This document shows, in pieces, positions 17,992-61,552 of a stretch of 64,000 bases of DNA. The stretch spans positions 1-64,000 of the forward strand of contig JAFUIP010000009.1 of NCBI GenBank assembly GCA_017468435.1, written 5' to 3'. This DNA comes from Bacteroidales bacterium. Its GTDB lineage: Bacteria > Bacteroidota > Bacteroidia > Bacteroidales > UBA1402. A program made the translations under genes and the position numbers. The first letter of the stretch is position 1. Each line of letters begins with the position of its first letter. The notes beneath the pieces were generated by a model. The model ran no database searches and was not told where the DNA came from. It worked only from the letters and a program-made list of their open reading frames with translations.

Positions 17992-18006
17992 AAGAATCTG
18001 AAAATC

Positions 18007-18280: not shown

Positions 18281-18340
18281 ATATTCGTAAAAATTTATAC
18301 CCAATTTTCAACAATCTCTCCGCAAGCCCACGTCTGCATC

Positions 18341-18371
18341 TTTGTTTTTCTCTCGGCTTGCACTAACTTTG
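18341..18371 (+). promoter_or_regulatory. Promoter of the aminopeptidase P gene
   Basis: TTTG (18341-18344), 19-nt spacer, TAACTTTG (18364-18371), 35 nt before the ATG. It is divergent from the rpsU promoter. Confidence 0.85.
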
Positions 18372-18406
18372 CCCCCAAACGAATTCAAATTAAAAACATT
18401 AAGCAT

Positions 18407-36637: not shown

Positions 36638-36660
36638 GATGATATCCGTAAGAGATGAAG

Positions 36661-36697
36661 CGGCCCGCCTCTGCAACTTCGTTGCGCCGGCGGGCCG
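36661..36697 (-). terminator. Strong intergenic hairpin inside the operon
   Basis: CGGCCCGCC pairs with GGCGGGCCG, and an inner GCAAC/GTTGC stem is stacked within. There is no T run after it. It lies between the fusion gene and the GH141-like gene and probably stabilises or partly ends the upstream mRNA rather than closing the operon. Confidence 0.5.
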
Positions 36698-36708
36698 ACC
36701 CATAATAA

Positions 36709-40761: not shown

Positions 40762-42228
40762 TTATTGTCCGTAAGTATGAAACATTTTATATAGGTTTTC
40801 AATTCCTTTAAGCGCGTTTTCCGGCAAATTTTCTCCGTTCTCTCCCCAGACTTTCAACAACTTGGCATCTTCTTCCACGCAGGAAGATTCGTCAAAGAGT
40901 CCGTTTTCGTCTTGGAGTTTCTTCACGTTCAAGCCCCAATGTTTTGCCAAAAAGGCATAAGTAGCCTGACGCTTAGAAGGTCCGTAATCGTGTCCTTCCT
41001 TGGGGAAATGGGCATTTTCCACCATGTCGCCGGCGCCATAAAAACCATAGGTTCTTTGAATGAAAGGAAATTCCAGCCAAGGCACATCTTTGGTCCAATC
41101 CTTACCGTCGGAAACAATCAGCATGGGACGAGGCGCGCACATGGCGGCAATTTCGGCATTGTTGGTACCATTGGCACTCAGATGAATGGGATTTCCGCTC
41201 TCGCAAGGACAACCTCCCACAAAGTAAGAAGAAGTCATCACCACCGGCATGCTGAGCGTGATACGGTCGTCTATGGCCGTGATGAACATGGTCTGGCTGC
41301 CACCGCCACTTCCGCCGGTAATAGCGATACGGGTAGTGTCGGCTTCACGAAGCGAGCAAAGATAATCCAACATACGAATGGCGTTCAGGCTCTGAATGGT
41401 ATGCGCCATGGCCGTACGATGCGCGCGAGGTTCGAACTGCAAGAGCTGTTCATCCCAAGAGAAAAGATCGTAACTCACAGCTATACAACCCATTTTGGCC
41501 TGCATGGCACAGCGCACCTGATGGTCGTAACGATAACGTCCTTTACCGAAATGTCCGTTGGGATTCAAGACAATAGGACAAGAACCTTTCTTATATTTTA
41601 CCGGATGATAAATACTTCCCGTGCAATACACGCCCGGCAAGATTTCCAGACCGATGTTCTGCACATAATAGTCGCCATACACACGCTTGGGGCCCAGATA
41701 AGGCTTGCCGGCAGGCGCAGGAGGAAGATTGTTCAAACCGGCATTCTCGCGCAGTTCTTTCTGCAATTGCGAGCGACGTGCTTCCCAAGATTCCTTGTCG
41801 GTATATACCGTCTGTAAATAGTTCAAGATATCCTGGCCATCTTCCGGCAAACGACGCGCATACTCAAAAGGCTTAATTTCATAGACGCCCTCTTTTTGTT
41901 TCACATACTTCAAGTCGAGAGGCTTGAGCACATTGTCGAGGGTTTCTTCCACACTCCAAGGACGATAACGATATTCCGCATGTTTCAGCATGACGCCGTT
42001 CACATCGTTTTTGGAATAACGCAACTTCACAGAAAACTGTTCTTCTATATCCTTGAGAACATCCACCAAAGGCTTGGCGAACTTAGTGTCGCTGGTGGGA
42101 CGATGCAACTGCAAATCGCGCTTGGCCAGGGTGTCGGAATGCCAAAGTTCCCACGAAGTCTGGGCCCAAGCCGAGAAGCTCGTGCAAATAGTCAGACAAA
42201 TTAACAGACTGAGGCTCTTCGATTTCAT
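40762..42228 (-). CDS. Secreted alpha/beta-hydrolase esterase with N-terminal STN-like domain (CE19-like)
   Basis: A signal peptide (1-22) is followed by an STN-like segment (about 50-120, VDVLKDIEEQFSVKLRYSKN, KPLDLKYVKQKEGVYEIKP), the small domain otherwise seen before TonB receptors, secretins and FecR-type sensors. Residues 170-470 are an alpha/beta hydrolase with nucleophile S307 (GGSGGG), Asp374 or Asp377 (SDGKDW) and His413 (EGHDYG). The catalytic part resembles the CE19/AXE1 group, whose RG-II member removes methyl esters from the galacturonan backbone. Its place between GH140 and GH28 fits that role. Acetyl rather than methyl esterase activity remains possible. It starts 1 nt after GH28. 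Confidence 0.78.
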   Translation of the reverse strand: MKSKSLSLLICLTICTSFSAWAQTSWELWHSDTLAKRDLQLHRPTSDTKFAKPLVDVLKDIEEQFSVKLRYSKNDVNGVMLKHAEYRYRPWSVEETLDNVLKPLDLKYVKQKEGVYEIKPFEYARRLPEDGQDILNYLQTVYTDKESWEARRSQLQKELRENAGLNNLPPAPAGKPYLGPKRVYGDYYVQNIGLEILPGVYCTGSIYHPVKYKKGSCPIVLNPNGHFGKGRYRYDHQVRCAMQAKMGCIAVSYDLFSWDEQLLQFEPRAHRTAMAHTIQSLNAIRMLDYLCSLREADTTRIAITGGSGGGSQTMFITAIDDRITLSMPVVMTSSYFVGGCPCESGNPIHLSANGTNNAEIAAMCAPRPMLIVSDGKDWTKDVPWLEFPFIQRTYGFYGAGDMVENAHFPKEGHDYGPSKRQATYAFLAKHWGLNVKKLQDENGLFDESSCVEEDAKLLKVWGENGENLPENALKGIENLYKMFHTYGQ

Positions 42229-42229: not shown

Positions 42230-43816
42230 TTATTTCAAAAGAATTAAAGCATTCCTTTTCTTCATCACTTCAGGAGCCACCATCCACTTCGTATCCATAC
42301 GATCGAGGTAATTGCCTTGCAAAACAACCTTTTCAGTTTCAGCACCTCTCAGTTCGAGGAAAGCAGCACTTCCGGCCTTGGGGAAACAATTGGCAATGAA
42401 TACGTTCTTGGCATTTTCCATACGGATAACAGGCACTTGGTCGTTCACTTCCATGGTGCGGACATTGTCGAAATACAATTCTTCCGAGTTGCGTACATCC
42501 AATACCGGACCCTTGTCGGAATTCACGATAAAATCGCTGATGGTCACGTTCTTGGCTTCTTGAATAAAGAAACCGTTTTCAGCCTGAATGTTAACATTAT
42601 TGATACTGATGTCGCTCACGGGCATTTCGGGAATACCGCGAATACCACCGGCAGCTTTCACTTCGGTACCTGTCATATTGGAAATGTGAATATTGCGGAA
42701 AATGGGCGTACGCTCGCTCACGGGTTCCTGGGGCACATTCGAATAGAAAAGGTTGAAGATGATGGCTTCCTTTTGGATATTCTTCATCACGATGTTGTCC
42801 ACGCGGATTTCTTCGACGATACCGCCACGTCCGCGGGTAGATTTCAGGCGGATACCACGGTCGGTGCCATCGAACACACAGTTGCTGATGGTGATTTTGC
42901 GCACGTCGCCCGACATTTCGCTACCGATCACCACGCCACCGTGACCACTCAACATGGTACAATTGGTGATGGTGATGTTTTCGCAAGGCACGCCGTATTG
43001 ACGTCCCTGAAGGTCACGACCCGACTTGATGGTGATACAATCGTCGCCCACGCTGATATGGCAATTGGAGATATGCACATTCTTACAAGAAGAAGGATTG
43101 ATACCGTCGGTGTTGGGCGATTCAGGATTATAGATGGTCAAATCCTTGATGTTCAGATTTTCACAAAATTCGGGATTCACCGTCCAGAAAGGAGAGTTCT
43201 GAATGTGCAAACCTTCGATAAGAATATTCTTGCAACGATAGAATTGGATAAAAGGAGGACGGAAAAATTCGCGGGCCAAGGTTCTCTTCCAGTCTGATTG
43301 TTCTTCGAGTTTCAAATCGGGATTAGCTTCTACCCAAGCTTGCTGATATTTATTGCGTTTCTTTTCACCGGCCTTCACGTTGCCTTCGTTGCGCCAGGCC
43401 TCGTTCCACCATTCACGGCCATTGCCTTCGAGCGTACCGCGACCTTTAATGGCGATGTTTTCAGCATCGTAAGCAGCAATAAGCGGATGGAAACTATTCA
43501 TCACCACGCCCTCGTAACGCATTTCCACATAAGGCATATAATGATCGAAGTTATCTGAGAAACAAAGACTTGCGCCAGCTTCTACCTCGATGGTGACATT
43601 ACTTTTCAAGGTGATAGGACCTGTCAGATAATCGCCTGCAGGAAAATACAAGGTACCACCGCCATGGGCTTCCAGGGTGTCGATGGCTTGCGCAATGATT
43701 TCCGTATTGAGGAAAACACTGTCGTTCTTGGCACCAAAATCCAACATATTGATAAACTTGGCCTGGGCCACATTAAGGCTCAATGCGAGCAAGATCAAAG
43801 TGAGAAATTTCTTCAT
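42230..43816 (-). CDS. Secreted polygalacturonase-family enzyme, GH28
   Basis: The 528-residue protein has a signal peptide (MKKFLTLILLALSLNVAQA) and a complete GH28 active site: NTD at 235-237, the acid pair D258-D259 (VGDDCITIKSG), H292 (GHGGVVIG) and R323-x-K325 (GIRLKS). It hydrolyses alpha-1,4 bonds between galacturonic acids; exo-acting galacturonidase for RG-II backbone is likely from context. It follows the kinase gene by 17 nt and precedes the esterase by 1 nt, so catabolic and depolymerising genes share one mRNA. Confidence 0.95.
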   Translation of the reverse strand: MKKFLTLILLALSLNVAQAKFINMLDFGAKNDSVFLNTEIIAQAIDTLEAHGGGTLYFPAGDYLTGPITLKSNVTIEVEAGASLCFSDNFDHYMPYVEMRYEGVVMNSFHPLIAAYDAENIAIKGRGTLEGNGREWWNEAWRNEGNVKAGEKKRNKYQQAWVEANPDLKLEEQSDWKRTLAREFFRPPFIQFYRCKNILIEGLHIQNSPFWTVNPEFCENLNIKDLTIYNPESPNTDGINPSSCKNVHISNCHISVGDDCITIKSGRDLQGRQYGVPCENITITNCTMLSGHGGVVIGSEMSGDVRKITISNCVFDGTDRGIRLKSTRGRGGIVEEIRVDNIVMKNIQKEAIIFNLFYSNVPQEPVSERTPIFRNIHISNMTGTEVKAAGGIRGIPEMPVSDISINNVNIQAENGFFIQEAKNVTISDFIVNSDKGPVLDVRNSEELYFDNVRTMEVNDQVPVIRMENAKNVFIANCFPKAGSAAFLELRGAETEKVVLQGNYLDRMDTKWMVAPEVMKKRNALILLK

Positions 43817-43833: not shown

Positions 43834-44988
43834 TTATTCAAATTCGGGCCAGGCATAGCTTCCCGGCTTCAGGGTAATATAACAATATGGTTCGGTATTC
43901 AGTTTCAGCTGTACCACACCGGGAGTCCATTCCCTTACAGGCGTAAAACTGTTCCAACCAAGACGTTGCAAGAGGCTATATGCCGTAGCACCACCCTCTA
44001 TGAGCAAATGTGAGGGATTGATTTTCTGCAAGAGAAGGAACATGGATTCCGTCATACGATAACGCAGATGTTCGGCACAAGAATCGAACTTCACGGGCTT
44101 CGGACCAAAACGCACCAAGAGTCTTTGTGAGATTTCCCAAGTGGTGGCACAAGCTTCTACAAAAGCCTGAATGTCGGCATCCGTCACCTTATCTTCCTGC
44201 AACATCGATGCGGGCAGATTCATCAGTGGCATACCTTCTGCAGCCAAGCGTTCAGAACCTTGCATACTGTTCAGGTGTGCGCTACCGCAAATCATCAGGC
44301 AATCTTGCAATGGAGAAAGTTCAGAAGCATCCTCGTCTTTGGGAAAAGCTTTCACCTTGCCCAGTTCGATTTGTTCTTCCAAATATTCACGCCAGAAATC
44401 GGCACTGCCACCGGGCAACACGCCTTCTTGACAAAGACGCACGCTGGCTCGCAAGTCTTCGCTGGTGACAGCATCGGGCACCATGTAATTGATGGGCGAA
44501 GAAGAAGCCACCACGTTGCGCGACTCTATGATACTGTGTACCTGAGAACTCTTGACCGGAAACTCCGGATCGTTGGCGAAAGCAGTTTCGGCTAAAAGCT
44601 TGTCTTCCACATAGTACAAACCGTTTTTGATGGAACGATGTGTAGCTGTATTGGCCGGTTGGATGAGCAGTTCCTTCATACCGAAAACATCGGCGATGGC
44701 ACGCATCTCCAACAAGACCCAACCGCGAAGTGCCGAATCGATTTTCTTGACGACATGCGTCACGCCGGCTGCCTTGAGGTTTTCCGCCAAAATGCGGGAA
44801 ATCTTCACAGCACCTTCTGCCGTAAAGGAACGGGTATCTTCAGCGACAACCAGTACATCGGTATCGACATCTTGAATGGTTTCCACTTCGGGAATATCCG
44901 TCAGGAAACTCACAGAAACGCCGCGACGCAAACAAATGCCTGCCACTTCGGCTGCCCCGGTAAAATCGTCAGCAATAATGGTTATCAT
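43834..44988 (-). CDS. DUF1537 four-carbon acid-sugar kinase
   Basis: The 384-residue protein begins MITIIADDFTGAAEVAGICL, the hallmark of the family's N-terminal sugar-binding domain (about 1-225). The C-terminal nucleotide-binding domain (about 235-380) shows CGSAHLNSMQG and IEGGATAYSLLQRLGW. Known members phosphorylate the terminal hydroxyl of D-threonate, D-erythronate or 3-oxo-tetronate in the cytoplasm. The neighbour is PdxA2-type (1 nt apart) and no OtnC/OtnI genes are present, which fits direct tetronate 4-kinase activity rather than 3-oxo-tetronate kinase. With the aldolase and alcohol dehydrogenase upstream, D-threonate derived from DHA is my preferred substrate (inference). Confidence 0.9.
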   Translation of the reverse strand: MITIIADDFTGAAEVAGICLRRGVSVSFLTDIPEVETIQDVDTDVLVVAEDTRSFTAEGAVKISRILAENLKAAGVTHVVKKIDSALRGWVLLEMRAIADVFGMKELLIQPANTATHRSIKNGLYYVEDKLLAETAFANDPEFPVKSSQVHSIIESRNVVASSSPINYMVPDAVTSEDLRASVRLCQEGVLPGGSADFWREYLEEQIELGKVKAFPKDEDASELSPLQDCLMICGSAHLNSMQGSERLAAEGMPLMNLPASMLQEDKVTDADIQAFVEACATTWEISQRLLVRFGPKPVKFDSCAEHLRYRMTESMFLLLQKINPSHLLIEGGATAYSLLQRLGWNSFTPVREWTPGVVQLKLNTEPYCYITLKPGSYAWPEFE

Positions 44989-44989
44989 A

Positions 44990-46015
44990 TCATTGTTTGT
45001 TTTGAGCCATTTTCAAAGCATAATCAATAGAAATAAGCATGGCGTCTTCGCAAGCAATACCTTGTCCGGCAATTTCGAAAGCGGTACCATGATCGACAGA
45101 GGTTCGGATAATAGGCAATCCCAAAGTGATGTTCACGCCCTTGACACTATCCATTTTCTGCTTTTCGTTGTTCCATTTGAAACCCACGAGTTTGAAAGGA
45201 ATATGACCCTGATCGTGATACATGGCCACGCAACCATCGAATTTACCTTGGACAGCCTTGGCGAAAATCGTATCCGGGGGCACAGGGCCTTCCACATCAT
45301 AACCTTGGGCTTTGGCCTCTTGAATGGCAGGGATGATTTCCTCGATTTCTTCCTGACCGAACAAACCATTTTCTCCACTATGCGGATTCAACCCGGCCAC
45401 GGCCAAATGCGGCTTTTCAATACCGAACTGGCGACAAGCATTGTGCAAAAGACCGATAACATTGAGCACGCGTTCCTTCTTGGCACGGTCACAAGCCTCG
45501 CGCAAAGACACATGCGTGCTGACATGAATCACGCGCAAAGAATCGTCGGCCAAGAGCATGGCGTAGTTGTTGGTGTTGGTAAAGTGAGCATAGATTTCGG
45601 TATGTCCGGAGAAGTTGAAACCGGCCATGTGAATAGCTTCCTTGTTGATGGGAGCCGTCACGGTGGCATCGATTTCGTGCTTCATGGCCAGTTCAATATT
45701 GCAACGAACTGCTTCGAAGGCCGCGCGTCCGCACATGGCCGAGACTTGCCCGTATTGCAACTGGCTCATATCCACGTTATCTAAGTCGTACACATCTATG
45801 CAGCCTTGCTCAAATTGAGCCTCTGCCACAGACTTGATAGCGCGGACACTCATGTTCAGACCCAAGAAATCGATGGCAGCCTGCATGACTTTCGCATCGC
45901 CCACCACCATGGGACGGCATTTTTCGTACACCTTGGCATCCTGCAAAGCCTTGACGGTAATTTCAGGGCCTATACCGGCAGGATCGCCCATGCTTATACT
46001 AACAATTGGTTTCAT
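44990..46015 (-). CDS. pdxA2: PdxA2-type 4-phospho-tetronate 3-dehydrogenase
   Basis: The ATG at 46015 gives 341 residues starting MKPIVSISMGDPAGIGPEIT. Metal-site His are seen at H138 (FSGHTE), H168 (VSTHVS) and in AMYHDQGHIPFK, as in PdxA. In vitamin B6 synthesis PdxA oxidises 4-phosphohydroxythreonine; PdxA2 members next to DUF1537 kinases oxidise 4-phospho-D-threonate or 4-phospho-D-erythronate to a 3-oxo acid that loses CO2 to give dihydroxyacetone phosphate. The kinase 1 nt downstream and the absence of pdx genes support PdxA2. It follows the alcohol dehydrogenase by 7 nt. Confidence 0.9.
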   Translation of the reverse strand: MKPIVSISMGDPAGIGPEITVKALQDAKVYEKCRPMVVGDAKVMQAAIDFLGLNMSVRAIKSVAEAQFEQGCIDVYDLDNVDMSQLQYGQVSAMCGRAAFEAVRCNIELAMKHEIDATVTAPINKEAIHMAGFNFSGHTEIYAHFTNTNNYAMLLADDSLRVIHVSTHVSLREACDRAKKERVLNVIGLLHNACRQFGIEKPHLAVAGLNPHSGENGLFGQEEIEEIIPAIQEAKAQGYDVEGPVPPDTIFAKAVQGKFDGCVAMYHDQGHIPFKLVGFKWNNEKQKMDSVKGVNITLGLPIIRTSVDHGTAFEIAGQGIACEDAMLISIDYALKMAQNKQ

Positions 46016-46022
46016 ATTTCGA

Positions 46023-47171
46023 TCAATAAATATTTTCGTAAATGCTGATGACATCTTCACGGGTAATCTCACGCGGATTGTTGGTGAGCAAGCGGGTCAC
46101 GTTCATTGCCATATCGGCCATTTCGGGAATATCTTCCTTCTTGATGCCGATTTCAGACAGATGCTGAGGAATACCACATTGAGCCGACAATTGCTGGATA
46201 TAATCAATCACAGCGTCTGCATTCTGCTGGTTATCATAACGATAAGGCAAACCTATTTCCTTGGCCATGGCGCCAAAACGAGCCAGACAATTGGGCTTAT
46301 TGAAACGCAACACCTCCGGCAAAAGCAAGGCATTGGCCAAACCGTGCGACATATGATATTTTCCGGCCAAACCATAGGACAAGGCATGCACACCGCAAGT
46401 GTTCACCGGGCCCAGACAAAGACCTCCCATCATGGAAGCCATGGCAAGCGCCTCACGGGCCGGTTTATTTCTACCATCGCGGCAAGCCTTCAGCAAATTC
46501 TTGCAAACCAAGCCGATACCACGCAATGCATAGGTATCTACAAAGGGATGAGCATTCTTATTGATAAAAGCTTCCACGCAATGACAAAGCGCGTCCATAC
46601 CGGTTTCTGCCGTAATCTTGGCAGGCAGGCTCAAAGTAAACATAGGATCGATGAGCGTGCAATCGGGCAAGAGATACGGACTGATGATACCCTTCTTTTC
46701 GCCATCCTGAGAATCGAGCAGAATAGCATTGGGAGAGACTTCGCTTCCGGTGCCCGCCGTGGTGGGTGCGCAATAAAGCGCCACGCTACGTTTGTCGAGC
46801 ATACCCTTGCCAAAGCACTTGTTAATCGGGGTTTTTCTGTCGCAAAGGGCCGCCAACAATTTGGCTACGTCCAGCACGCTACCACCACCCACACCCAAAA
46901 CCAGGTCGGGACGGAAAGAAGCAGCCTCTTTGCGCAGCACGTCGAAATAATCGGTGGTAGGCTCGCCGGGAAGCGTATAATCAATCTTTTTCAGTTTCAA
47001 GCCCTTGTCGGCGGCCTGCTGGAGAGAATTCTCCAACATCGGCCAGATGGGACCCACAGAGAGCACCAGTACTTTCTTAAAACCCGACTGCTGGGCTTCC
47101 TGAATCCAGGAATCGAAACAATCTGTACCAATCAACACCTTGGCAGGCGTCATTATTTCTACTTGATTCAT
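46023..47171 (-). CDS. Iron-containing (group III) alcohol dehydrogenase
   Basis: The 382-residue protein has the NAD motif GVGGGSVLDVAK, APTTAGTGSEVSPNAI, and the metal ligands in TGMDALCHCVEAF and HALSYGLAGKYHMSHGLANALLLP. It reduces aldehydes or oxidises alcohols with NAD(P)H. Its ATG overlaps the last base of the symporter stop codon. Between an aldolase and a tetronate kinase, the simplest role is reduction of the four-carbon aldehyde acid produced by aldol cleavage to a tetronate. Butanol-type or lactaldehyde reductase activity (rhamnose pathway) is an alternative. Confidence 0.88.
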   Translation of the reverse strand: MNQVEIMTPAKVLIGTDCFDSWIQEAQQSGFKKVLVLSVGPIWPMLENSLQQAADKGLKLKKIDYTLPGEPTTDYFDVLRKEAASFRPDLVLGVGGGSVLDVAKLLAALCDRKTPINKCFGKGMLDKRSVALYCAPTTAGTGSEVSPNAILLDSQDGEKKGIISPYLLPDCTLIDPMFTLSLPAKITAETGMDALCHCVEAFINKNAHPFVDTYALRGIGLVCKNLLKACRDGRNKPAREALAMASMMGGLCLGPVNTCGVHALSYGLAGKYHMSHGLANALLLPEVLRFNKPNCLARFGAMAKEIGLPYRYDNQQNADAVIDYIQQLSAQCGIPQHLSEIGIKKEDIPEMADMAMNVTRLLTNNPREITREDVISIYENIY

Positions 47172-48721
47172 TACTTCAATTCTTTAGTGTTGTAATCGTA
47201 AATAGTCAAACCCTTTTCAAGATTGGGCTTGGGGAAAAGGAAGCTGGCAAAATAGCCAACCACCAAAACAATGAGGTGACTGTAAACACCCAACATATAT
47301 CTGTGATGCGGGAAGTTCCACTTGCCCAGGTCGAGAATCAGACGCTTGGCGCCATCCACTTCGATGCTGGTGGTGGTCAGAACGGCGTAAGCAGTGAACA
47401 ACACGCAGACAATCAAACCGATGTACAAACCTTGCTTGTTGGCACGCTTGCTGAACAGACCCAAGAGGAAGATACCCACGATACCGGCCGAGAAGATGGC
47501 ATACAAATCGAAGATAACGCCCAGCACGCCTTCGCCTTCCCAAGCATAATAAAGCATGGCCACACCTACCGTTGCCAAACCAGATACAGCCACCATGGCA
47601 CGACCTATATACAATCTTTGTTTGTCGGTGCAATCGGGTTTGAAACGTTGATAATAGTCTTCTACGATAATGGCAGACAGACAGTTCATATCAGAGTCGA
47701 GACTGGAAATGGCGGCAGCCACCAATGCGGCAATCACGATACCGGCAATACCCACAGGCAGTTGCGTCACAATGAAGTGCGGGAACACTTGGTCTGAATT
47801 AATACCGGCAGGCAGCACAGCCTCGCCAGAGTTGTAGAAGAAATACAAAAGCGTACCGATCAACATGAACATGGCCCAAATGGGAACACTCAGACCCACA
47901 CCGATATAAGCAGCCTTCTTGGCTTCCTTGTCAGATTTGGCAGTGAGATAACGTTGAACGATGGTTTGGTCGGTACCATATTTCTGCAAAGCATAGAAAG
48001 CACCGTTAATCACCATCACCCAGAAGGTCAGTTCGGCAAAACTGAAGTTGTACGGGCCGAAATCTATCTTCTTCATGGCGATGGCATCGTGGAAAATCTG
48101 AGCAGGACCGGCTTCCGGTGCCACCAACAAGACAACCACACAGATAATACCACCCAGAATAAGCAACAGACCCTGGATAACATCCATCCAGATGACGCCT
48201 TCCATACCACCCACGAAGGTAACAGCCACGATAAGAATACCCAGAACGACAATCACCCAAAGAGCATCTATACCTGTCATGCTATACACTGCCAAAGAGA
48301 TGAGATACAACACGGTACCCATCTTCGAGAAGTGCGTCAGGATGAAAGCCAAAGAAGAATAGATACGGGCAGCCAAACCGAAACGACGTTCGAAATATTC
48401 GTAGGTACTCAAACGAATCATCTTACGGAAAAGCGGCACGATAGCCCAAATAAGGAAAATCAGCACCACCGGCACCATCAATCCCTGAACCAGGAGAATC
48501 CAGTTGCCCTTGTAAGCGGCCGAGGGATAAGACAAGAAAGTCACGCTACTGATAAGCGTGGCAAAAATAGACAGACCGATGGCCCATGAGGGAATCTTGT
48601 TGCTTCCTGAAAAATAAGTATCTGAATCTTTGTTCTTGCGAGAGGCATAAATACCCACACCCAAGGTAAACACAAGCGTCAGAAGAACGATGATAATATC
48701 TACCCAATGAATGCTACTCAT
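47171..48721 (-). CDS. Sodium/solute symporter (SSS family)
   Basis: The 516-residue protein has about 13 hydrophobic helices and the SSS pattern (GVGIYASRKNKDSDTYFSGS, WAIGLSIFATLISSVTFLSYP, and GMEGVIWMDVIQGLLLI, with an Asp/Gln pair typical of family members). It should import an acidic sugar with sodium across the inner membrane. It overlaps the upstream aldolase gene by 4 nt and the alcohol dehydrogenase by 1 nt, so the three are translationally linked. About 30% of positions appear shared with the second symporter at 60055-61548 (estimated by eye). Confidence 0.93.
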   Translation of the reverse strand: MSSIHWVDIIIVLLTLVFTLGVGIYASRKNKDSDTYFSGSNKIPSWAIGLSIFATLISSVTFLSYPSAAYKGNWILLVQGLMVPVVLIFLIWAIVPLFRKMIRLSTYEYFERRFGLAARIYSSLAFILTHFSKMGTVLYLISLAVYSMTGIDALWVIVVLGILIVAVTFVGGMEGVIWMDVIQGLLLILGGIICVVVLLVAPEAGPAQIFHDAIAMKKIDFGPYNFSFAELTFWVMVINGAFYALQKYGTDQTIVQRYLTAKSDKEAKKAAYIGVGLSVPIWAMFMLIGTLLYFFYNSGEAVLPAGINSDQVFPHFIVTQLPVGIAGIVIAALVAAAISSLDSDMNCLSAIIVEDYYQRFKPDCTDKQRLYIGRAMVAVSGLATVGVAMLYYAWEGEGVLGVIFDLYAIFSAGIVGIFLLGLFSKRANKQGLYIGLIVCVLFTAYAVLTTTSIEVDGAKRLILDLGKWNFPHHRYMLGVYSHLIVLVVGYFASFLFPKPNLEKGLTIYDYNTKELK

Positions 48722-49614
48722 AATGACAATGCTTTAAATTGTTCTATAATACGTTGATTTTCTTCGGAAGACAATTCCGTCAATGGAGGCATCATGACGG
48801 TTGAGCACAGACCGGCATCCTGCATCAGTACCTTCAGCGCGGCCAGGGATTCGCCCAAAGTGCGTCCCTTTTGGTAAACCACGGCCACCTTGTCGGTAAG
48901 TTCCTGATAATAATCAGCTTTTGCAAAATCACCGGCCAAATAAGCCTGATACAATTTTCCGTACAATTCAGGAACGATGTTACCCGTGCTGGGAACAATA
49001 CCGTCAGCACCGAGTTTCAAGCTGTTGGCACCTTGTGCGCCCCATCCGCAGAAGAAAGAGAAATCTTCACGGTTTTGGAACATTTCGATGCTCTTTTTCA
49101 TCTTGTCTTCGTCGCGTTCCGAATCTTTCAGGCCTGCCATGTTTTCGTGATGACTCAAAGCTTCCACCACTTCAAGAGGAATAGACATCTGCGTGGTAGC
49201 CTTGATATTGTACATGAACACAGGCGCTTTAGCCTCGTCGGCCAGACGCAGGTAAAAGTTCTTCATCTGTTCAGGCGTAAGGATGTAATACGAGGGCAAA
49301 GTGGCCACCACGGCATCCACACCCAAAGCGGCATATTCGTTGGCCAACTTGATGAGCGATTGCACATCGTTGCCCACCAAACCGGCATACACCATCTGGC
49401 CATCGGCCTTCGATTCCACAGCCGCCTGCATGAAGCGGAGACTTTCCTGAGCGCCCACCGAAGCCGATTCACCGGTAGTTCCCAAAACCAACGGCGAAAT
49501 CTGATGCGCTGCAAACTGTTTCATGATACGGGCCACAGCCTGCGTATCGATGCTCAAATCCGGGCAAAGCGGCGTGATCATGGGCACCACCACCCCTTGA
49601 AATTTTTTCTTCAT
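48718..49614 (-). CDS. DapA/NanA-family pyruvate aldolase
   Basis: The 298-residue TIM barrel has the pyruvate-binding GTTGES (45-50), Tyr135 (VFMYNIK) and the Schiff-base Lys163 (AGLKDSE). This family condenses or cleaves pyruvate with aldehydes: dihydrodipicolinate synthase, sialic acid lyase, 2-keto-3-deoxy sugar acid aldolases and dehydratases. Partnership with a symporter and tetronate genes argues for cleavage of an imported 2-keto-3-deoxy acid. DHA would give pyruvate plus a four-carbon aldehyde acid. It starts 20 nt after the glycosidase gene and ends overlapping the symporter by 4 nt. Confidence 0.9.
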   Translation of the reverse strand: MKKKFQGVVVPMITPLCPDLSIDTQAVARIMKQFAAHQISPLVLGTTGESASVGAQESLRFMQAAVESKADGQMVYAGLVGNDVQSLIKLANEYAALGVDAVVATLPSYYILTPEQMKNFYLRLADEAKAPVFMYNIKATTQMSIPLEVVEALSHHENMAGLKDSERDEDKMKKSIEMFQNREDFSFFCGWGAQGANSLKLGADGIVPSTGNIVPELYGKLYQAYLAGDFAKADYYQELTDKVAVVYQKGRTLGESLAALKVLMQDAGLCSTVMMPPLTELSSEENQRIIEQFKALSL

Positions 49615-49634
49615 AATCTGAATATCTTATTGTT

Positions 49635-51173
49635 TTATTTCAATTCCACTTCAATCTTCTGCAAATGTGCGCTGGAAGCCACTTTCTTACCATTCACAAA
49701 GACTTGGAAACCCTTTCCCTTCTTGAAGTGCTTACCATCCTTATCCCAAAGAATCGTCACAGATTTTCCATGATAAGGAATGCCATCCATACAGAACCAA
49801 TCCCATTGATTTTCAGGAACCAAAGGATTCACTTCGAGCACATTGTCCTGACGAGGACGCAAGCCCATCAAACCGGTCACCATCAAATCGGCAAAGGTAG
49901 AGTGATTGTAATAACGGCTGCGCAACTGATCGCCTTTGAGCCAATAGCCCGTCACTTCATCCAAATACTCGCCGATGTAAGGACGACCTCTATGATACTG
50001 AGACTCAACGTACAAATTCATGTGCATAAAGTAAATGCTGTCGTTGATGTAGCTTTGGGGATAATCGTTCAAGACATTGGCCATGGCCGTCAAAGTCTGA
50101 GAAGAAGCAAAAGGCCAGATGGCGCCGTCCCATTCGCACTTGCCCACACCGCGGGTTCTGAATTCCGGGTGACGACGTTCGGCCGTGGTCAAGCCATAAG
50201 GCGCGAGAAAACCTTTGGTATCGCATACTTGCAACCAAGCTTTTTCATAATCTTTTCCGCTTTCGGGCAAATGGAAAATCCAAGGAATATAACCGATGGC
50301 TTCGCGTACCTGAGCCAGTTCGCCATCCTTGATGCGACGGGTTTCGAAAAATTCGTGTTCAGTGTTCCACAAACGATTCTGCACCAAAGTTCTCAGCGTG
50401 TCGGCCTTGGCCTGATACAAAGCCGCTTTTTCGGCATTGCCGGCCATCTTGAACATTTCAGACAAAGCCACAGCATTTCCGTACATGTAGCTATTGATGG
50501 TAGGACGCGCATTCTTGATACGACGGCCACCGCTGATAGATTCTTCCATACCATCCTGCACATCACCTTGCCAATACAGACCTTCCGGCCAACGTTGCAC
50601 GTCCCAGGCTTGATAATGAGCTTCCAAATCGGGCAGCAAGTCGAGCAGATAATCCTTATCCTGATGCACCAGGTAGCGATCGTAGAGCGCATAAGGGAAC
50701 CACGAACTGAACTTCATCAAGCGGTTCATGGGCTTTCCTTCGTTGCCACGAAGCCAGATGTGCATATACTGATCTATGTAAGACTGATCTTGAATCCAGC
50801 GGAGTTCGTTGATATGATGACCGATGGCGCAAGCAATCATGTTGTACTTGTCGGCGTAGGAACGCTTCACCAAAAATTCGTTCACCACATAACCCTGGGG
50901 CGTCAGTTGCAAACCTTTGCGCAAAGACCACCAACGGAAATACCACATTTCCTCGAAATTATCCTGCGGACAAGCAAACAAAGGAATATTTTCTTCCATC
51001 CAAGCCCAAGCCTCTGCATTAGGAATGGCCTGAACGATGGGTTCGTCTTCCATACGGTTAAAATACGACACATAGTGTTCAAAATCAGATGCTTTCAGAA
51101 TCTTGGCCGGAGACTTTGCCTGCATGGCAAACAGAGGCAAAAGCAACAAAAGGGATAGAAATAATCTCTTCAT
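49635..51173 (-). CDS. Secreted (alpha/alpha)6-barrel glycosidase, GH63/GH142-like
   Basis: The 512-residue protein has a signal peptide (MKRLFLSLLLLLPLFAMQAK) and an all-helical barrel of the MGH1/GH63-like type. Conserved acids occur in WQGDVQDGMEESISGGRR, INSYMYGNAVALSEM and CEWDGAIWPFASSQTL, the last two motifs typical of that clan, and a beta-sandwich ends the protein (VFVNGKKVASS). Exact family uncertain. As first gene of the DHA-type operon it may be GH142-like, an arabinofuranosidase that removes the sugar capping DHA in RG-II; this is inference from context. Confidence 0.72.
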   Translation of the reverse strand: MKRLFLSLLLLLPLFAMQAKSPAKILKASDFEHYVSYFNRMEDEPIVQAIPNAEAWAWMEENIPLFACPQDNFEEMWYFRWWSLRKGLQLTPQGYVVNEFLVKRSYADKYNMIACAIGHHINELRWIQDQSYIDQYMHIWLRGNEGKPMNRLMKFSSWFPYALYDRYLVHQDKDYLLDLLPDLEAHYQAWDVQRWPEGLYWQGDVQDGMEESISGGRRIKNARPTINSYMYGNAVALSEMFKMAGNAEKAALYQAKADTLRTLVQNRLWNTEHEFFETRRIKDGELAQVREAIGYIPWIFHLPESGKDYEKAWLQVCDTKGFLAPYGLTTAERRHPEFRTRGVGKCEWDGAIWPFASSQTLTAMANVLNDYPQSYINDSIYFMHMNLYVESQYHRGRPYIGEYLDEVTGYWLKGDQLRSRYYNHSTFADLMVTGLMGLRPRQDNVLEVNPLVPENQWDWFCMDGIPYHGKSVTILWDKDGKHFKKGKGFQVFVNGKKVASSAHLQKIEVELK

Positions 51174-51197
51174 ATTTGATAAAATTAGACTTTGCTA

Positions 51198-51205
51198 CAA
51201 ATATA
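51198..51205 (-). promoter_or_regulatory. -7 box of the large pectin operon, with upstream direct repeats
   Basis: TATATTTG matches TAnnTTTG, 25 nt before the ATG at 51173. No TTTG lies at the usual 18-21 nt; instead two direct TTTGAG repeats separated by 6-7 nt occur between about 51216 and 51235, a possible activator site. Confidence 0.5.
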
Positions 51206-51264
51206 CTACCCTTTTCTCAAATTTGCGCTCAAAATCACACAAAATATACAGCCTGAAAAGCAAA

Positions 51265-51306
51265 AAAGAAGCCGTGCCAAACATATTGATTGACACGGAC
51301 TTCTTT
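51265..51306 (-). terminator. Terminator of the upstream pectin operon
   Basis: AAAGAAGTCCGTG-type and CACGGCTTCTTT arms (one or two mismatches) are followed on the minus strand by TTTTTTGCTTTT. It lies 29 nt after the stop at 51336. Confidence 0.75.
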
Positions 51307-51335
51307 ATCAAATAAAAGTTTTCTCAGAAATCTTG

Positions 51336-53204
51336 CTATTTGGCCGAAGTTTCCAAAGAATAGATTCTGAATACAGCTTCCTTGGCTTCCACAGAAGAGG
51401 CATTTTCCATATCGGTGAAGCGGTCGGCAGGCGTATCAGGCGTAGGATCGAAACGAACGGCACCGGTGCGGAACATCACGCGTTCCAAAGTGGCAGCGGG
51501 CGCATAGAAAATACGACGAACTTCTCGACCTCCGTTCACACGCACGGTGTACGAGCGAAATTCGCAATCCACGTTCAAATCGATACGATAAGTCTTGCCG
51601 GCTTCGTAAGTGCCCAGACTGTTGTAACGAGCGCCCGACTTAGAGTAAATACGACCATCAGGATCGAAACTGATACGGATAGAAGGTTGACCCTTAGCAT
51701 CTTGAATCTCCACCTGCAACTGGCCATGATCGGTCTGCTCGGGACGCACTTCGAAGCTGACAGAGAAGGCAGAAGAAGCAGGAATGATTTTTTCAGCCTT
51801 GCCATAATCGAAGGGATCCTTGTCACGCATGGTCAGACACTTCACGCCCTGAGCATCTTTTTCCATCTTGACGGGTGCCCAAACCAGGTCGTACGTATTC
51901 CAGTAATCGAGTTCCTTACCATCTTCCATCTGGTTGAAGACATCTTTCTGGTGGGCAGCCGCCTTGCAAACGATGGGTACAGGCACAGAGCTTACCCAGA
52001 TATCTTCCTTGTTCATGCTATACGTGAGCCACATCTTGCCATCGGCAGGCTGGCCATTACCTTCCTGAATACCACGCACATACTGCGGACCACGGCTCTT
52101 GTACTGACCACCATATCGCATGGGAGAAATCTCACCATGAACCAACATCATATCCGTGTAATTCAAGCCATCTTCAGAAGTTGAAACAGCCAAAGGCCAA
52201 CGATATTCCGAAGGATTGTACACCGTGGCGAACTTGCCGTCCGTGGTGCGTTGTCCCCAGATTTTCGCATTGCTGTTCACAAAGCCGTAAGCACGTTGCA
52301 CAGGCTCGTACCAAGTCTTTCCACCATCCTTGCTGATAGAAGTGAGCGCATGTTTCCAAAGACCCACCACATCTCCATTATCCAAATGATAATACGAGAA
52401 AGCCTTGTATTGTTTTTTCAGAGGAATCAATTCGTCATCACGGTCGGCTTCTTCCACCATCTGCATCATATACAGCGGATTAGCCAGAATTTCATCGCAA
52501 GCGGCCACAAACTTTTTGTCACGACTCTTTTTGTAGAAAGGATAATCGGTGTTCTTGGCATTGAAAGCATGGTTGTAACGCAAGAAATAAATGGGACCAT
52601 AAGTGCCGTCCTTCTTGATTTCGCGCACCACGCGGCCTATACCGTTACCATCGTTGGGATCGTCCTTGGCAAACAGCGCGATGCCATAGTAAGCAATGGC
52701 AATGAGTTTGTCGTATTTTTCCGAAACATAGAAGCCCACACGTTGATGCATCAAGGCTGAAGTCTTGCCATCGGCCTTAGGTCCGTCGGGTGTTTTCTGC
52801 AAACCTTCGGGCATGATATAGGGCGGGAAAATCACTTCTGGTTTCGACCAATTTTGACCATCTTTGGAATGAATGAGCAAGGTCTGGCAAGGCGGAATAT
52901 GTTCGCTCACAGAGTCACTGAGATATTCCACATAAAAGGTCTCGTTCCAATAAGCCATCATGGAAGCATGATTGTAGGTCCAACCGAAGCCATCGCTTTC
53001 CTCGGGCATTTCTCTGTTGGCACGCATAATCTGCTGATTGTGAACTCCGATTGCGGGCTGCAACTGTCCATGATGATAATCCACGTTAGACATCGTCTTG
53101 CCGGTGTAATGCACCAGATCCTTCTTGATATCTAAGGTTTCCTGAGCTGTCAGAGGCAATAAGGCAAGAGCCATCATCACCAGTAAGGCATTCATTTTTT
53201 TCAT
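51336..53204 (-). CDS. Secreted beta-propeller enzyme, sialidase-like (possible GH143)
   Basis: From the ATG at 53204 the protein has 622 residues, with a signal peptide (MKKMNALLVMMALALLPLTA). Residues 30-420 form a propeller with Asp-box-like motifs SKDGQNW, SKDGGKTW and SEDGLNY and a conserved start (LVHYTGKTM, AIGVHNQQIMRA, GWTYNHASMMAYWN). Residues 420-610 are a beta-sandwich. It is not a standard GH33. A propeller next to DHA-type catabolic genes suggests GH143, the RG-II DHA hydrolase family, in B. thetaiotaomicron joined to GH142 in one protein but here perhaps split over two neighbouring genes. I cannot confirm the family by reading. It ends the first operon. Confidence 0.65.
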   Translation of the reverse strand: MKKMNALLVMMALALLPLTAQETLDIKKDLVHYTGKTMSNVDYHHGQLQPAIGVHNQQIMRANREMPEESDGFGWTYNHASMMAYWNETFYVEYLSDSVSEHIPPCQTLLIHSKDGQNWSKPEVIFPPYIMPEGLQKTPDGPKADGKTSALMHQRVGFYVSEKYDKLIAIAYYGIALFAKDDPNDGNGIGRVVREIKKDGTYGPIYFLRYNHAFNAKNTDYPFYKKSRDKKFVAACDEILANPLYMMQMVEEADRDDELIPLKKQYKAFSYYHLDNGDVVGLWKHALTSISKDGGKTWYEPVQRAYGFVNSNAKIWGQRTTDGKFATVYNPSEYRWPLAVSTSEDGLNYTDMMLVHGEISPMRYGGQYKSRGPQYVRGIQEGNGQPADGKMWLTYSMNKEDIWVSSVPVPIVCKAAAHQKDVFNQMEDGKELDYWNTYDLVWAPVKMEKDAQGVKCLTMRDKDPFDYGKAEKIIPASSAFSVSFEVRPEQTDHGQLQVEIQDAKGQPSIRISFDPDGRIYSKSGARYNSLGTYEAGKTYRIDLNVDCEFRSYTVRVNGGREVRRIFYAPAATLERVMFRTGAVRFDPTPDTPADRFTDMENASSVEAKEAVFRIYSLETSAK

Positions 53205-53246
53205 ATCCATTGTTTTATATTAAAATTCGCTGCGTAAAGATAGGCT

Positions 53247-56189
53247 TTATCGGTAAAGCCACAAAATATATTCTTTCGTATGACGGAATACTTCTCCCGC
53301 TTTGATACGGAAAACTTTACCCACAGGTTCTCCCGTTTTGACATCCAAATATTGCGCCTTGTACTCGCCGGTTTTCTGGTAACGCAAATCTATCTCGGCT
53401 TTTTCCGAAGGATAGAGAATATAACCTACGTCAGGGTTACTCATCATATAAATGCCATTCATGCCGATAGGTGACATTTTCGTAGCGTCTTGCAAGAATT
53501 TTTCGGGCAATCCGGCCGGCAGATCACAGATGGAAGCACCCGCCAGAAAAGTCGCCCAAGCCAGTTCAGGATAACGGCTCGCCGAGTAAATGACGGCCTT
53601 TTCGGGATAAGCCTGACGATATTCCAAGACCATGTCGTACACACTTTGCCAAGAAGCAGGAGAGGGCTTCATGATGCGTTCGAATTGTCGGGGCGAAAGG
53701 TTCAGTCCGCCTTCGGGAGCAAAGAGTTTTCCATTGCCATCCATGTACCAATATTTGATATCGATAGCATCGATCACTTCGGCATAACGAGGATTTTTCA
53801 TAATGCTGTCTTGCACATCTTTGGTACAACTCAAAGCCACCAGCACCTGCTTATTGTTTTCCTTTTCCCAAGCAATGATTTCATCCAACCAGAAAGCCAC
53901 AAAATGATAAGGTCCGGTAAATTCCTCGCTGATAAAATGAATCACACTGCCCTTGTCGGCAAAATTATCCAAGCATTTTCGGATATAATTGCGATGCAAT
54001 TCCCTGCGCACCGGATGATTGACATCGTAGAAATGTTCGGCCATGAAGACGCGCTTGTTGCCGGCGTAAGGCGTTGGTTCGGGAAATCCTGTTTCGTTCA
54101 CGTTGTTGGCAGAACGCCAGGGAAAATCGGCCCAATGGCCTCCGGCCTCCAAGATATTGTGCTGAAAATAATGCTGATAGAACAACATCAAACCTTTTTC
54201 GTCGGCCAAGTCGGCGTAAGTAGCCAGGCGGTTCCAGTACCAATTGTTCCATCGGGTCAGATCGTATTTGCTCAAACCGTCCCAGGCACGGCCCTGTCCG
54301 CTGCGGGCAAAGGGCAATTCGTAGAAGGGAACGCGTTGTTCGCCGTCGATGCGGGCCGTACGCTGATGATCGTCGCGACGTCTGTCAAGCCAAAGAGCAT
54401 AATGGAAATCGGTCACCAAGATATTTTTCTCTTTCATGAAATCGGTAACATCCTTCAAATCGTCCACCATACCGTAGCCTTCCGGGCCCAAAGCATAGCG
54501 CACCAAATGCGGATCGTTTTGCGCCGACATGCGAGGATTGCCTCTCCACCAGGTACACTGACGACGTCCGCCCGTCAAAATCTGGCCATCTCTTTGCAGG
54601 ATGCCGTCTTTGAGTTCCACGGCCGGATATGGTTGTTTCTCCTGAACCTGCGCCACATAGGGCTTCCAAGCATCTTTCAATGGCTCGCTTTCGTAAGTAA
54701 GGACAAAAGGCTCGAGTATCAAGAGAGAGTCTATCCACTCAGACAACATGAGCAATGGTTTACGGGCTTTAGCCGTCTGATAGGCAGCGTCTTCGAAAGA
54801 AGAAGTGCCGCCATCGCCACGCGTCATCAACTTATCGCCTTCGGGCGAAGCCTTGCCCAAACGTTTTTCCAACTGCGAATAATACAGACTCCAAGGATTC
54901 ACGTGATTATTGCTCGATTCCCAATGTCCGCGACCATTGAACTGTCCCCAAGCGCCGAATGCATAGTTATTGCCTGAAACCTCGGGCTTTACACAAGACA
55001 CCATAGATGCCGTCGAATTCCAGAAAGTGGTATTGGTAGTGGTCCAGCCGGCAAAAGCATCGGCATAATTGGGCACATTGGTACGCAAGGCATTGCCGCT
55101 CACGCTACAGATATCGAAGAGCACACCGCTCGACCAGGCATCCACGCAGCCACTATAACTGTGAGGCATCAAAGACCAACATTGCACAAAAGCATTGGGT
55201 CCGTGCGTGGCGCCCACGGCAAAATCGTGATAACCTTCCTGAGCTTGAATACGCAGGCAAAGTACTTGAGAGCCTTTTACATAGAAAGAATAACGACGCT
55301 GTGAACCTATTTCAGAAACCGGCTCCAGGCTCTTACAATCTTGAATGCTGACACGCGATGCCGTTTCGGCCACAAACACGGCGGAACCGGCCAGATGACG
55401 AAATTCCACTGCCCTCACCCAGGCGTCTCTCACATGTTCAAGGGCGATGCCTATCCAAGCATGGTTTTCGTCTTTGAGATTATTCTCGTCGTACACAGAA
55501 TGTATGCAAAGGTTTTCAACACCCACATTTTCAATGCGTCCCGGCCATTCCATCCGAGAAAGGGAAACCTTGTTCTCGGGCAGCAATTCGTAAGTGATGG
55601 GCGCATCCAGATGAATGCTTTTACCGCGAACTTCGCTCACTTCTCTTTCCCAGCTGATATTCGGGAACTGTGAAATAAAAATTCTATCTCCTTGACGGAA
55701 AGAATGTTTCTCCAAATCCAAACTCAAAGCACCTACGGGAGCGGCCTTCGCAAGTGACACAGCATTTTTCTTATCGAAACTGGCATCGTTTTCACCTTTG
55801 ATGCGGATGATGCTCAAACGGTCGCGCGAAGTAGAAAGCAATTTTGTTCCATTGTCGTCTATGCCACTGCCTCGCAACACCACGCCGGAAGCCTTTATCC
55901 ACAGAGTGTTGGAAATGCAATACGTACCTTTTTCCAAAAGCACTGCGCCACGAAATCCATCTTCGTTCATGGGCAAGGACGATACATAATCCAAAGCCGC
56001 CTGAATGTTTTGCGTGGCATCTTCTTTCGTTGCCGGAACCACTGCTTTAATCGCCACCATGGGAATGGAAGATTCGCTGGCCTTGTATCCGCAATACGAA
56101 TAATCCGGCAAGGGCAAAGCTCTACCCCTCTGCGCCATCAAAGGCATGGCCAGACATAAAACAAGTAAGAATAAGCTATATTTTTTCAT
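53247..56189 (-). CDS. Secreted beta-helix plus TIM-barrel-like protein (DUF4955/DUF6298 type), copy B
   Basis: The ATG at 56189 is chosen for its signal peptide (MKKYSLFLLVLCLAMPLMAQ) and GGAGGA 8-9 nt upstream; 980 residues. Residues 25-450 are a pectate-lyase-like beta helix (ASGVVLRGSGIDDNGT, EPVSEIGSQRRYSFYVKG, GYHDFAVGATHGPNAFVQCW). Residues 540-880 look like a TIM-barrel hydrolase: WLDRRRDDHQR, ELPFARSGQG, SKYDLTRWNNWYWNRL, VIHFISEEFTGP with possible catalytic Glu. A C-terminal beta domain follows (YLDVKTGEPVGKVFRIKAGE). No activity is known to me for this family. It is a tandem paralogue of 56204-59311, 14 nt apart. Confidence 0.8.
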   Translation of the reverse strand: MKKYSLFLLVLCLAMPLMAQRGRALPLPDYSYCGYKASESSIPMVAIKAVVPATKEDATQNIQAALDYVSSLPMNEDGFRGAVLLEKGTYCISNTLWIKASGVVLRGSGIDDNGTKLLSTSRDRLSIIRIKGENDASFDKKNAVSLAKAAPVGALSLDLEKHSFRQGDRIFISQFPNISWEREVSEVRGKSIHLDAPITYELLPENKVSLSRMEWPGRIENVGVENLCIHSVYDENNLKDENHAWIGIALEHVRDAWVRAVEFRHLAGSAVFVAETASRVSIQDCKSLEPVSEIGSQRRYSFYVKGSQVLCLRIQAQEGYHDFAVGATHGPNAFVQCWSLMPHSYSGCVDAWSSGVLFDICSVSGNALRTNVPNYADAFAGWTTTNTTFWNSTASMVSCVKPEVSGNNYAFGAWGQFNGRGHWESSNNHVNPWSLYYSQLEKRLGKASPEGDKLMTRGDGGTSSFEDAAYQTAKARKPLLMLSEWIDSLLILEPFVLTYESEPLKDAWKPYVAQVQEKQPYPAVELKDGILQRDGQILTGGRRQCTWWRGNPRMSAQNDPHLVRYALGPEGYGMVDDLKDVTDFMKEKNILVTDFHYALWLDRRRDDHQRTARIDGEQRVPFYELPFARSGQGRAWDGLSKYDLTRWNNWYWNRLATYADLADEKGLMLFYQHYFQHNILEAGGHWADFPWRSANNVNETGFPEPTPYAGNKRVFMAEHFYDVNHPVRRELHRNYIRKCLDNFADKGSVIHFISEEFTGPYHFVAFWLDEIIAWEKENNKQVLVALSCTKDVQDSIMKNPRYAEVIDAIDIKYWYMDGNGKLFAPEGGLNLSPRQFERIMKPSPASWQSVYDMVLEYRQAYPEKAVIYSASRYPELAWATFLAGASICDLPAGLPEKFLQDATKMSPIGMNGIYMMSNPDVGYILYPSEKAEIDLRYQKTGEYKAQYLDVKTGEPVGKVFRIKAGEVFRHTKEYILWLYR

Positions 56190-56190
56190 A

Positions 56191-56204
56191 CGTATATCCT
56201 CCAT
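56191..56204 (-). promoter_or_regulatory. Unusually strong Shine-Dalgarno site
   Basis: On the minus strand GGAGGATATACGT precedes the ATG at 56189. Such sites are rare in this genome and here decide between two starts (56204 and 56189). The stop of the upstream paralogue lies on the same bases. Confidence 0.6.
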
Positions 56205-59200: not shown

Positions 59201-59311
59201 GTTCCCTCTCTTGTCCACTTTCGGATAAGAAGCCTGCGCCATCGCCGTCAAAGGCAGGAAGATAGCCGTCAACGACAAGAGCGAAATAAATGAAACAATG
59301 CTTTTTTTCAT
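56204..59311 (-). CDS. Secreted beta-helix plus TIM-barrel-like protein (DUF4955/DUF6298 type), copy A
   Basis: The ATG at 59311 opens a signal peptide (MKKSIVSFISLLSLTAIFLP), 1035 residues. It has the same plan as copy B: N-terminal DYSYCGYKASDELIPEVAVK, beta helix with VSEIGGSRRYTFH and FSTGHIAPGPNAFVQC, barrel with YDRRRDDHERIRR, EQPFARSGQG, SKYDLTKWNVWYWNRLKTY and VIHFISEEYTGP, and a C-terminal beta domain. An insertion rich in Lys (about 575-595, KQAAKKNTKKSASLA) and one near 195-225 are specific to this copy. Conserved acids lie mainly in the barrel, so that is the likely catalytic part. It follows the DUF3826 gene by 72 nt. Confidence 0.8.
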   Translation of the reverse strand: MKKSIVSFISLLSLTAIFLPLTAMAQASYPKVDKRGNKIPDYSYCGYKASDELIPEVAVKAFVPYRSGDATAYIQAAIDYVSSLPVDENGFRGAVQLDKGQFQIEGGLLLSASGVVLRGSGSDENGTELLGLGQDRTTMIRLAGRADRRLDKVRTLSAPVAMGDMFIRVNEVETYSPGQTLLISRWVTKEWIDAMDMNDFGGESSYIGWKPGDKTKGRPGDVEVRWERQVLALRGDTLFLDAPLTCDISLEEGMVQVQTWPGRIAQVAVENLRLTSVYDESNPYDENHRWNAIELDNAEDAWVRRVQFRHFAGSAVFVTDNVRRVTVEDCQSYAPVSEIGGSRRYTFHTLGGQCLFQRLYAQQGFHDFSTGHIAPGPNAFVQCQADWSHHMSGAIAAWSTGLLFDNFNGVGVLLSYGNRGQDNMGAGWTAANSMMWNCSAAMLANPNPPTAHNWAYGAWGQMQGRFESADSFVKPQSLFYAQLAARNAATKDEVRKLMPIDTQSASNPPISKAQVFVAEARQAALELKDWIDSLQVKYPLTLASQTKENTLWLKSYKQAAKKNTKKSASLAVIENGIITKDDAILTGTKNGIVWWNGSTKARYLFNSKAPHITRWVPGRTGTGFTDDLEELTNNMKARGVLTMDHHYGLWYDRRRDDHERIRRMDGYVWAPFYEQPFARSGQGVAYDGLSKYDLTKWNVWYWNRLKTYADLADEKGLMLYHQHFFQHNIIEAGAHWADSPWRSANNINDMGFPEPVPYAVDKRVYMSEHFYDVSHEGRRAMYRNYIRKSLDEFADNGSVIHFISEEYTGPLHFVQFWLDVIAEWEAETGKDAKVALSCTKDVQDAILADEARAKTVDIIDMKYWHPTMNGFHAPPGGVHMAPRQYGRLRRDYTEKAEVKARNASERTYEVVSDYRQRFPEKAFIVSANGDVWAAMMGGASLCALPSALPQDFKKAVPQMRPVENKEAMQIGKPGLGYVVYAPSAEQLSLNLEGDGRTYNAKWINPRNGLPVGEAFKMKGGKTYSFEKKGVLWLYR

Positions 59312-59383
59312 CGTCATAGGAGAAAAAACCGCCCGTCTCTCCAAACAGAAAGACTAAGGCGGTTGATAATACTTTGGTGTAAA

Positions 59384-61548: not shown

Positions 61549-61552
61549 GACA

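Follow-up and report, generated by a model that had tools for sequence, protein, structure and literature searches.

The DNA under study is a stretch of 64,000 nucleotides from a gut Bacteroidales bacterium (contig JAFUIP010000009.1, positions 1 to 64,000; hereafter the window). We focused on a minus-strand operon in it that is predicted to serve the catabolism of 3-deoxy-D-lyxo-heptulosaric acid (DHA), a rare sugar of rhamnogalacturonan-II (RG-II). In the direction of transcription, the operon runs from a GH142 glycosidase (49635-51173) through a DapA-type aldolase (DapA1, 48718-49614), an SSS symporter (SSS1, 47171-48721), an iron alcohol dehydrogenase (Fe-ADH, 46023-47171) and PdxA2 (44990 to about 46024) to a DUF1537 kinase (43834-44988). 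The gene for a GH143 propeller (51336-53210) precedes it on the same strand. The gaps inside the operon measure -4 to +20 nt, and 162 nt separate GH142 from GH143. The preliminary description of this DNA had placed an operon at 51173-43834 with the genes in this order, and all of them are present there on the minus strand. The genes from DapA1 to the kinase, which were assigned by Pfam and NCBIfam comparison, are referred to below as the five-gene cassette.

GH143, GH142 and the five-gene cassette

The protein encoded at 51336-53210 is a GH143 homologue and, judged by its relatives, a predicted DHA-releasing enzyme. It aligns over its full length (E 1.7e-233) with the part of 5mqr that spans residues 24-611, and it matches PF22585 as well as PF24067 (E 1.5e-115, above the cut-off), a family that carries the name of BT_1020. 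The GH142 protein matches PF22422, and its alignment (E 1.3e-229) covers residues 618-1098 of that 5mqr chain, which is BT1020 of Bacteroides thetaiotaomicron. In BT1020 the two enzymes are joined in one protein, whereas in the window they are two genes. The GH143 family was created for the B. thetaiotaomicron enzyme that cleaves DHA from RG-II, and another site of that protein, a beta-L-arabinofuranosidase, acts before DHA release (PMC6811678). No other DHA-releasing enzyme is known. The GH142 protein of the window is a putative beta-L-arabinofuranosidase, predicted to remove arabinofuranose from DHA in side chain D. Homology thus bears out what had been described as a possible DHA-releasing propeller, with the start of the reading frame corrected to 53210.

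DapA1 matches PF00701 (E 4e-44) and carries the GTTGE motif of the DapA/NanA superfamily (T46, T47, G48 and E49). The Schiff-base K163 and Y135 are present in all 76 orthologues, T46 in 75 and T47 in 74. DapA1 is not DapA proper, as it reaches 150.5 bits against the cut-off of 206 of TIGR00674 and lacks the Arg138 of DHDPS that binds the carboxylate of aspartate-semialdehyde; a threonine (T140) occupies this position in 76/76 orthologues. Nor is it NanA, since it scores 75 bits against the cut-off of 382 of TIGR00683, and Glu192 of the glycerol-binding pocket is an alanine in 74/76. Directly after the Schiff-base lysine stand the invariant E166 and R167 (68/76), which, as a guess, could bind the second carboxylate of the substrate. 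The DapA1 orthologues score above 500 bits while everything else in the genomes checked stays below 200 bits, and they therefore constitute a separate subfamily. DapA1 is a predicted class I aldolase, and DHA would be its substrate.

SSS1 matches PF00474, and its best solved relative is 5nv9 (E 4.5e-82), a sialic acid symporter; it is a predicted Na+/DHA symporter, with DHA as the probable cargo. Fe-ADH matches PF25137 and PF00465 and is closest to families and structures of the lactaldehyde reductase and propanediol oxidoreductase types. It would work in the reducing direction, from D-threuronate (2,3-dihydroxy-4-oxobutanoate) to D-threonate. PdxA2 (PF04166, E 1e-109) scores 314 bits with the PdxA2 structure 2hi1 and 300 bits with 6e85, deposited as D-threonate 4-phosphate dehydrogenase, versus 199 bits with E. 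coli PdxA. It is a predicted D-threonate 4-phosphate dehydrogenase/decarboxylase, nearer to PdxA2 than to biosynthetic PdxA. At 352.7 bits it lies below the cut-off of 583 of the NCBIfam equivalog NF002891 and is not called a member of it. Its longest open reading frame extends to 46072 via a GTG that overlaps Fe-ADH, and the conserved region starts at about 46024.

The kinase (PF07005, E 2.9e-33, 116 bits) has 384 aa and represents a short DUF1537 subfamily. It possesses the SBD_N domain and the DDxTGA and K-DS-LRG motifs, in which D7, D8, T10, G11, K82, D84, S85, R88 and G89 are invariant among five orthologues, and its profile reaches the DUF1537 structures 4xfm, 1yzy and 4xfr. The best NCBIfam model is D-threonate kinase (NF047819), yet the score of 98.6 bits is far below the curated cut-off of 450, and we therefore only infer the exact substrate of this predicted D-threonate 4-kinase. 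The kinase is not of the OiaK type, as the cassette has no RuBisCO-like gene and the OiaK model is not among the matches of the kinase.

Distribution of the cassette and its tie to GH143

When random Bacteroidota genomes were searched by tblastn with the genes of the window, the whole cassette turned up in G031, in G074 and at a second G033 locus, and G176 had it without the SSS gene (G and L are our labels for genomes and loci). A profile search with the aldolase recovered 80 loci in Bacteroidota, Ignavibacteria, KSB1, Opitutales and Acidobacteria. All five genes were found in 53 loci, in two fixed orders: DapA-SSS-ADH-PdxA-kinase in 35 and ADH-DapA-PdxA-kinase-SSS in 18. Of the 51 loci whose DapA1 is flanked by 5.5 kb or more on each side, 45 have its four partners on the same strand. 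Conservation of the set in both orders, over more than 50 loci in all, excludes chance, and this comparison argues that the five genes form a unit.

GH143 (PF24067) was encoded in 72 of the 77 genomes bearing DapA1, a count that leaves out three short-contig loci (L088, L092 and L098), and a strong match was found in 17/296 random genomes across the phylum. The Fisher test gave p = 7e-54; as it takes no account of common descent, this value means a very strong association and is not to be taken literally. The preliminary description had called for such a co-occurrence search and had held that a gene set occurring mostly without RG-II enzymes would speak against a role in DHA use; the opposite was found. 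Among the five exceptions without GH143, two (L102 and L111) are flanked by other RG-II genes and one (L097) ends at the contig edge inside GH142.

The relation is not simply one of neighbourhood. Of the 47 loci with full 10-kb flanks, 20 contain no RG-II homologue, and nearly all of those genomes encode GH143; L131, for example, has no pectin genes within 10 kb of the cassette and GH143 still in the genome. Since GH143 is encoded even in genomes where the cassette lies far from RG-II genes, the tie is functional and not a matter of mere clustering. DUF6298 proteins, which adjoin GH143 in most RG-II clusters examined, were found in 64 of the 80 genomes searched. However, four genomes (G031, G354, G366 and G369) have GH143 and lack both GH142 and DUF6298, and Ignavibacteria and KSB1 are among such genomes. 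The G031 cassette and GH143 are 8 kb apart and belong to a single co-directional cluster, which also includes a sulfatase gene. The cassette is therefore tied to GH143 itself and not solely via RG-II. The link to DHA release proposed in the preliminary description holds, whereas its restriction to RG-II was slightly too narrow.

In Ignavibacteria, the aldolase locus occurs with a sulfatase and with a BNR (sialidase-like) protein of 380 aa whose gene immediately precedes GH143 (L056:4227-5696 and 17548-18690; L144:6590-8050 and 18391-19545). These loci suggest a sulfated, DHA-bearing algal glycan. The main components of green-flagellate scales include Kdo and DHA (PMC1413533), and such scales are a plausible substrate for the G031 cluster.

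The predicted route and competing explanations

A lyase of the DapA fold frees pyruvate from a 2-keto-3-deoxy acid, and DUF1537 kinases together with PdxA2 convert a tetronate such as D-threonate to dihydroxyacetone phosphate (DHAP). With a pyruvate lyase, a single reductase and a tetronate kinase in one unit, the other product of the lyase should be a four-carbon aldehyde acid; this acid plus pyruvate in turn makes the substrate a seven-carbon 2-keto-3-deoxy diacid, i.e. DHA. Outside the cytoplasm, GH142 would take L-arabinofuranose off side chain D of RG-II and GH143 would then free DHA. SSS1 would bring DHA into the cell, where DapA1 would cut the C3-C4 bond to release pyruvate and D-threuronate. 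Fe-ADH would reduce the aldehyde to D-threonate, the kinase would form D-threonate 4-phosphate, and PdxA2 would oxidize C3, with loss of CO2, to yield DHAP. As read from the sequence, the N-termini of the extracellular enzymes, including GH143, are signal peptide-like, and those of the aldolase, dehydrogenase, PdxA2 and kinase are not.

The stereochemistry was redrawn. The hydroxyl groups at C4, C5 and C6 of the D-lyxo chain stand left, left and right, and cleavage retains C5 (left) and C6 (right). When the chain is turned so that C7 becomes C1, the tetronate carries the old C6 as C2 (left) and the old C5 as C3 (right), which is D-threonate. The derivation of D-threonate from the D-lyxo configuration in the preliminary description was confirmed in this way. 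Its assignment of one gene to each step also agrees with the subtypes found, namely a PdxA2-type dehydrogenase, a DUF1537 kinase, an alcohol dehydrogenase of the lactaldehyde reductase type, and a DapA fold with the aldolase lysine and without the DHDPS arginine. We put the probability that the cassette encodes this route from DHA to DHAP at about 80%, as a pathway prediction.

Several observations weigh against this prediction. DapA1 occurs without the remaining genes nearby in L144, L145 and L162, and this type of kinase is missing from the entire G354 genome, so that alternative downstream routes may exist. The NBD_C domain of the kinase falls just under the Pfam cut-off. G074 and G176, which are 99-100% complete, have the cassette and no GH143; the 380-aa BNR protein, which adjoins GH143 in G031 and L144, is present in G176 on another contig and absent in G074. 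Conversely, 14 of the 17 GH143 genomes in the random sample have no short-type DUF1537, and no DapA1 orthologue was found where this was checked. DHA is therefore either unused in those genomes or handled by another route. The cassette is not the sole way of dealing with DHA, and GH143 does not require the cassette. Separately, at L144:3711-12486, DapA1 and SSS1 adjoin genes that by eye are transketolase-like and SDR-like, with neither PdxA2 nor a kinase; this neighbourhood is a possible alternative fate of the four-carbon aldehyde.

It is unlikely that the aldolase and symporter act instead on Kdo of RG-II side chain C, releasing pyruvate and D-arabinose, with a separate tetronate as the substrate of the kinase and PdxA2. 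Kdo accompanies DHA in RG-II (PMC12168206) and also in algal scales (PMC1413533), and a symporter whose nearest structure is a sialic acid transporter would suit any ulosonic acid. However, a Kdo aldolase has no need of a tetronate kinase or PdxA2, yet both are fixed partners of the aldolase, and the genome-wide tie is to the DHA-releasing GH143. Moreover, the second DapA/SSS pair of the window (DapA2 and SSS2, 60055-62473) is free for another ulosonic acid. DapA2 is near 4xky (E 1e-122), and its identity to the DapA1 group is no more than about 28%; within the RG-II cluster, this pair might serve the cleavage and uptake of Kdo. We consider it similarly improbable that the cassette is a generic D-threonate or D-erythronate operon placed in a pectin cluster by position, which DapA and Fe-ADH would supply from some other plant C7 or C6 acid. 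DUF1537 and PdxA2 are a known tetronate module, and no GH143 is linked to the cassettes of G074 and G176 or to that of the second G033 locus. Such an operon would not account for the near-complete co-occurrence with GH143 at the genome level, unlinked cases included, or for a dedicated DapA subfamily that is always part of the cassette.

Apiose and aceric acid, which are also rare sugars of RG-II, are very improbable substrates of the cassette, even though a GH140 apiosidase is encoded nearby in the window and DUF1537 kinases occur in apionate catabolism too. The DUF1537 proteins in the RG-II clusters of G021, G202, G033a, G080, G150 and G286 are of a different, 450-aa type and stand beside a RuBisCO-like protein in the vicinity of GH143, with OiaK/OiaX as best NCBIfam matches (tested on the G021 set). 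Since apionate seems to have its own OiaK/OiaX set, apiose is unlikely as the substrate, and the cassette is retained in genomes without GH142 or DUF6298.

In other Bacteroidota, RG-II clusters (L046:10948-14236, with counterparts in G202, G033, G080, G150 and G286) combine a RuBisCO-like protein and a 450-aa DUF1537 with a membrane protein and a protein resembling Asp/Glu racemases. These OiaX/OiaK-type loci are likely, by their gene content, the apiose/apionate arm of RG-II use. The linkage of all DUF1537 kinases to RG-II genes (8/14 DUF1537 genomes with GH143, in every case within about 50 kb) was considered as support and not counted, because these kinases are mostly of the OiaK type. In G000 (contig C13, L058:9478-11697), a second, 457-aa DUF1537 adjoins a 279-aa gene that by eye resembles a beta-keto acid cleavage enzyme; it is unrelated to the cassette.

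The surrounding cluster, known systems and significance

The co-directional cluster reaches from about 63.9 kb at its upstream end to about 34.8 kb at its downstream end, and in its entirety it is an RG-II degradation cluster. The operon extends, 17 nt past the kinase gene, into a GH28 galacturonidase (42230-43816, minus strand, PF00295). Further along the minus strand are an alpha/beta-hydrolase esterase of the glucuronoyl/acetyl-xylan esterase type (40762-42228, weak PF22244 match), which is possibly BT1017-like, a GH140 apiosidase fused to DUF3826 (38705-40753; PF13204, E 2e-113; PF12875), and a GH141-type beta-helix enzyme (34796-36703; PF21231 GH141 insertion domain, E 2e-61). The gene at 36709-38697 joins a BNR sialidase-like domain to a xylose-isomerase-type TIM barrel, and the two halves are separate adjacent genes in other genomes. 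Upstream, 53247-59344 encodes two tandem DUF6298 beta-helix proteins of 985 and 1046 aa on the minus strand (PF19815, E about 1e-200 each), which are possibly candidates for an RG-II glycosidase. The second SSS/DapA pair lies upstream of them, at the head of the co-directional cluster. Counts from a promoter and terminator scan were only modestly above those of shuffled sequences, and this result was not used.

Several known systems resemble parts of the cassette. Sialic acid catabolism, which uses the NanA lyase, an SSS-type sialic acid symporter and NanK/NanE, also combines a pyruvate-releasing lyase of the DapA/NanA fold and an SSS symporter, both acting on a 2-keto-3-deoxy acid. However, DapA1 is about 23% identical to E. 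coli NanA and lacks Glu192, and the downstream genes of the cassette are an alcohol dehydrogenase, a kinase and PdxA2, not NanK/NanE. In apionate catabolism, OiaK/OiaX also places a DUF1537 kinase in an RG-II cluster, but the kinase belongs to another subfamily and has a RuBisCO-like partner. The 2017 work of Ndeh and colleagues on RG-II degradation by B. thetaiotaomicron, including BT1020, is said to cover sugar release (summary in PMC6811678). In contrast to the window, many GH143 genomes of the random sample without a DapA1-type aldolase belong to one large genus, probably Bacteroides. Catabolism of D-threonate by a DUF1537 kinase (DtnK) and PdxA2 was described by Zhang et al. (2016, PNAS, PMC4961189), as cited in PMC10580937. 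The last two enzyme families of the predicted route are the same. In the cassette, however, an aldolase and a reductase are predicted to produce D-threonate inside the cell out of a C7 keto-deoxy diacid, and the kinase belongs to a short and divergent subfamily that scores under the cut-off of NCBIfam. The enzyme families are known; in agreement with the preliminary description, no account of DHA catabolism was found in the open-licence literature on DHA or heptulosaric acid catabolism or aldolase, GH143 and PdxA2/DUF1537.

Taken together, the cassette probably represents a widespread DHA catabolic pathway, not described before, in several phyla, with a new aldolase specificity for a C7 2-keto-3-deoxy diacid and D-threonate as an internal intermediate. 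It would serve RG-II degraders and users of other DHA glycans, e.g. green-algal scales. The many genomes with GH143 but no cassette suggest cross-feeding, in which some bacteria may release DHA and others consume it. If the pathway is true, it would specify what an aldolase subfamily, a DUF1537 subfamily, a symporter and an alcohol dehydrogenase act on in dozens of species from gut, rumen, soil and aquatic habitats, and D-threonate metabolism would gain a natural source.

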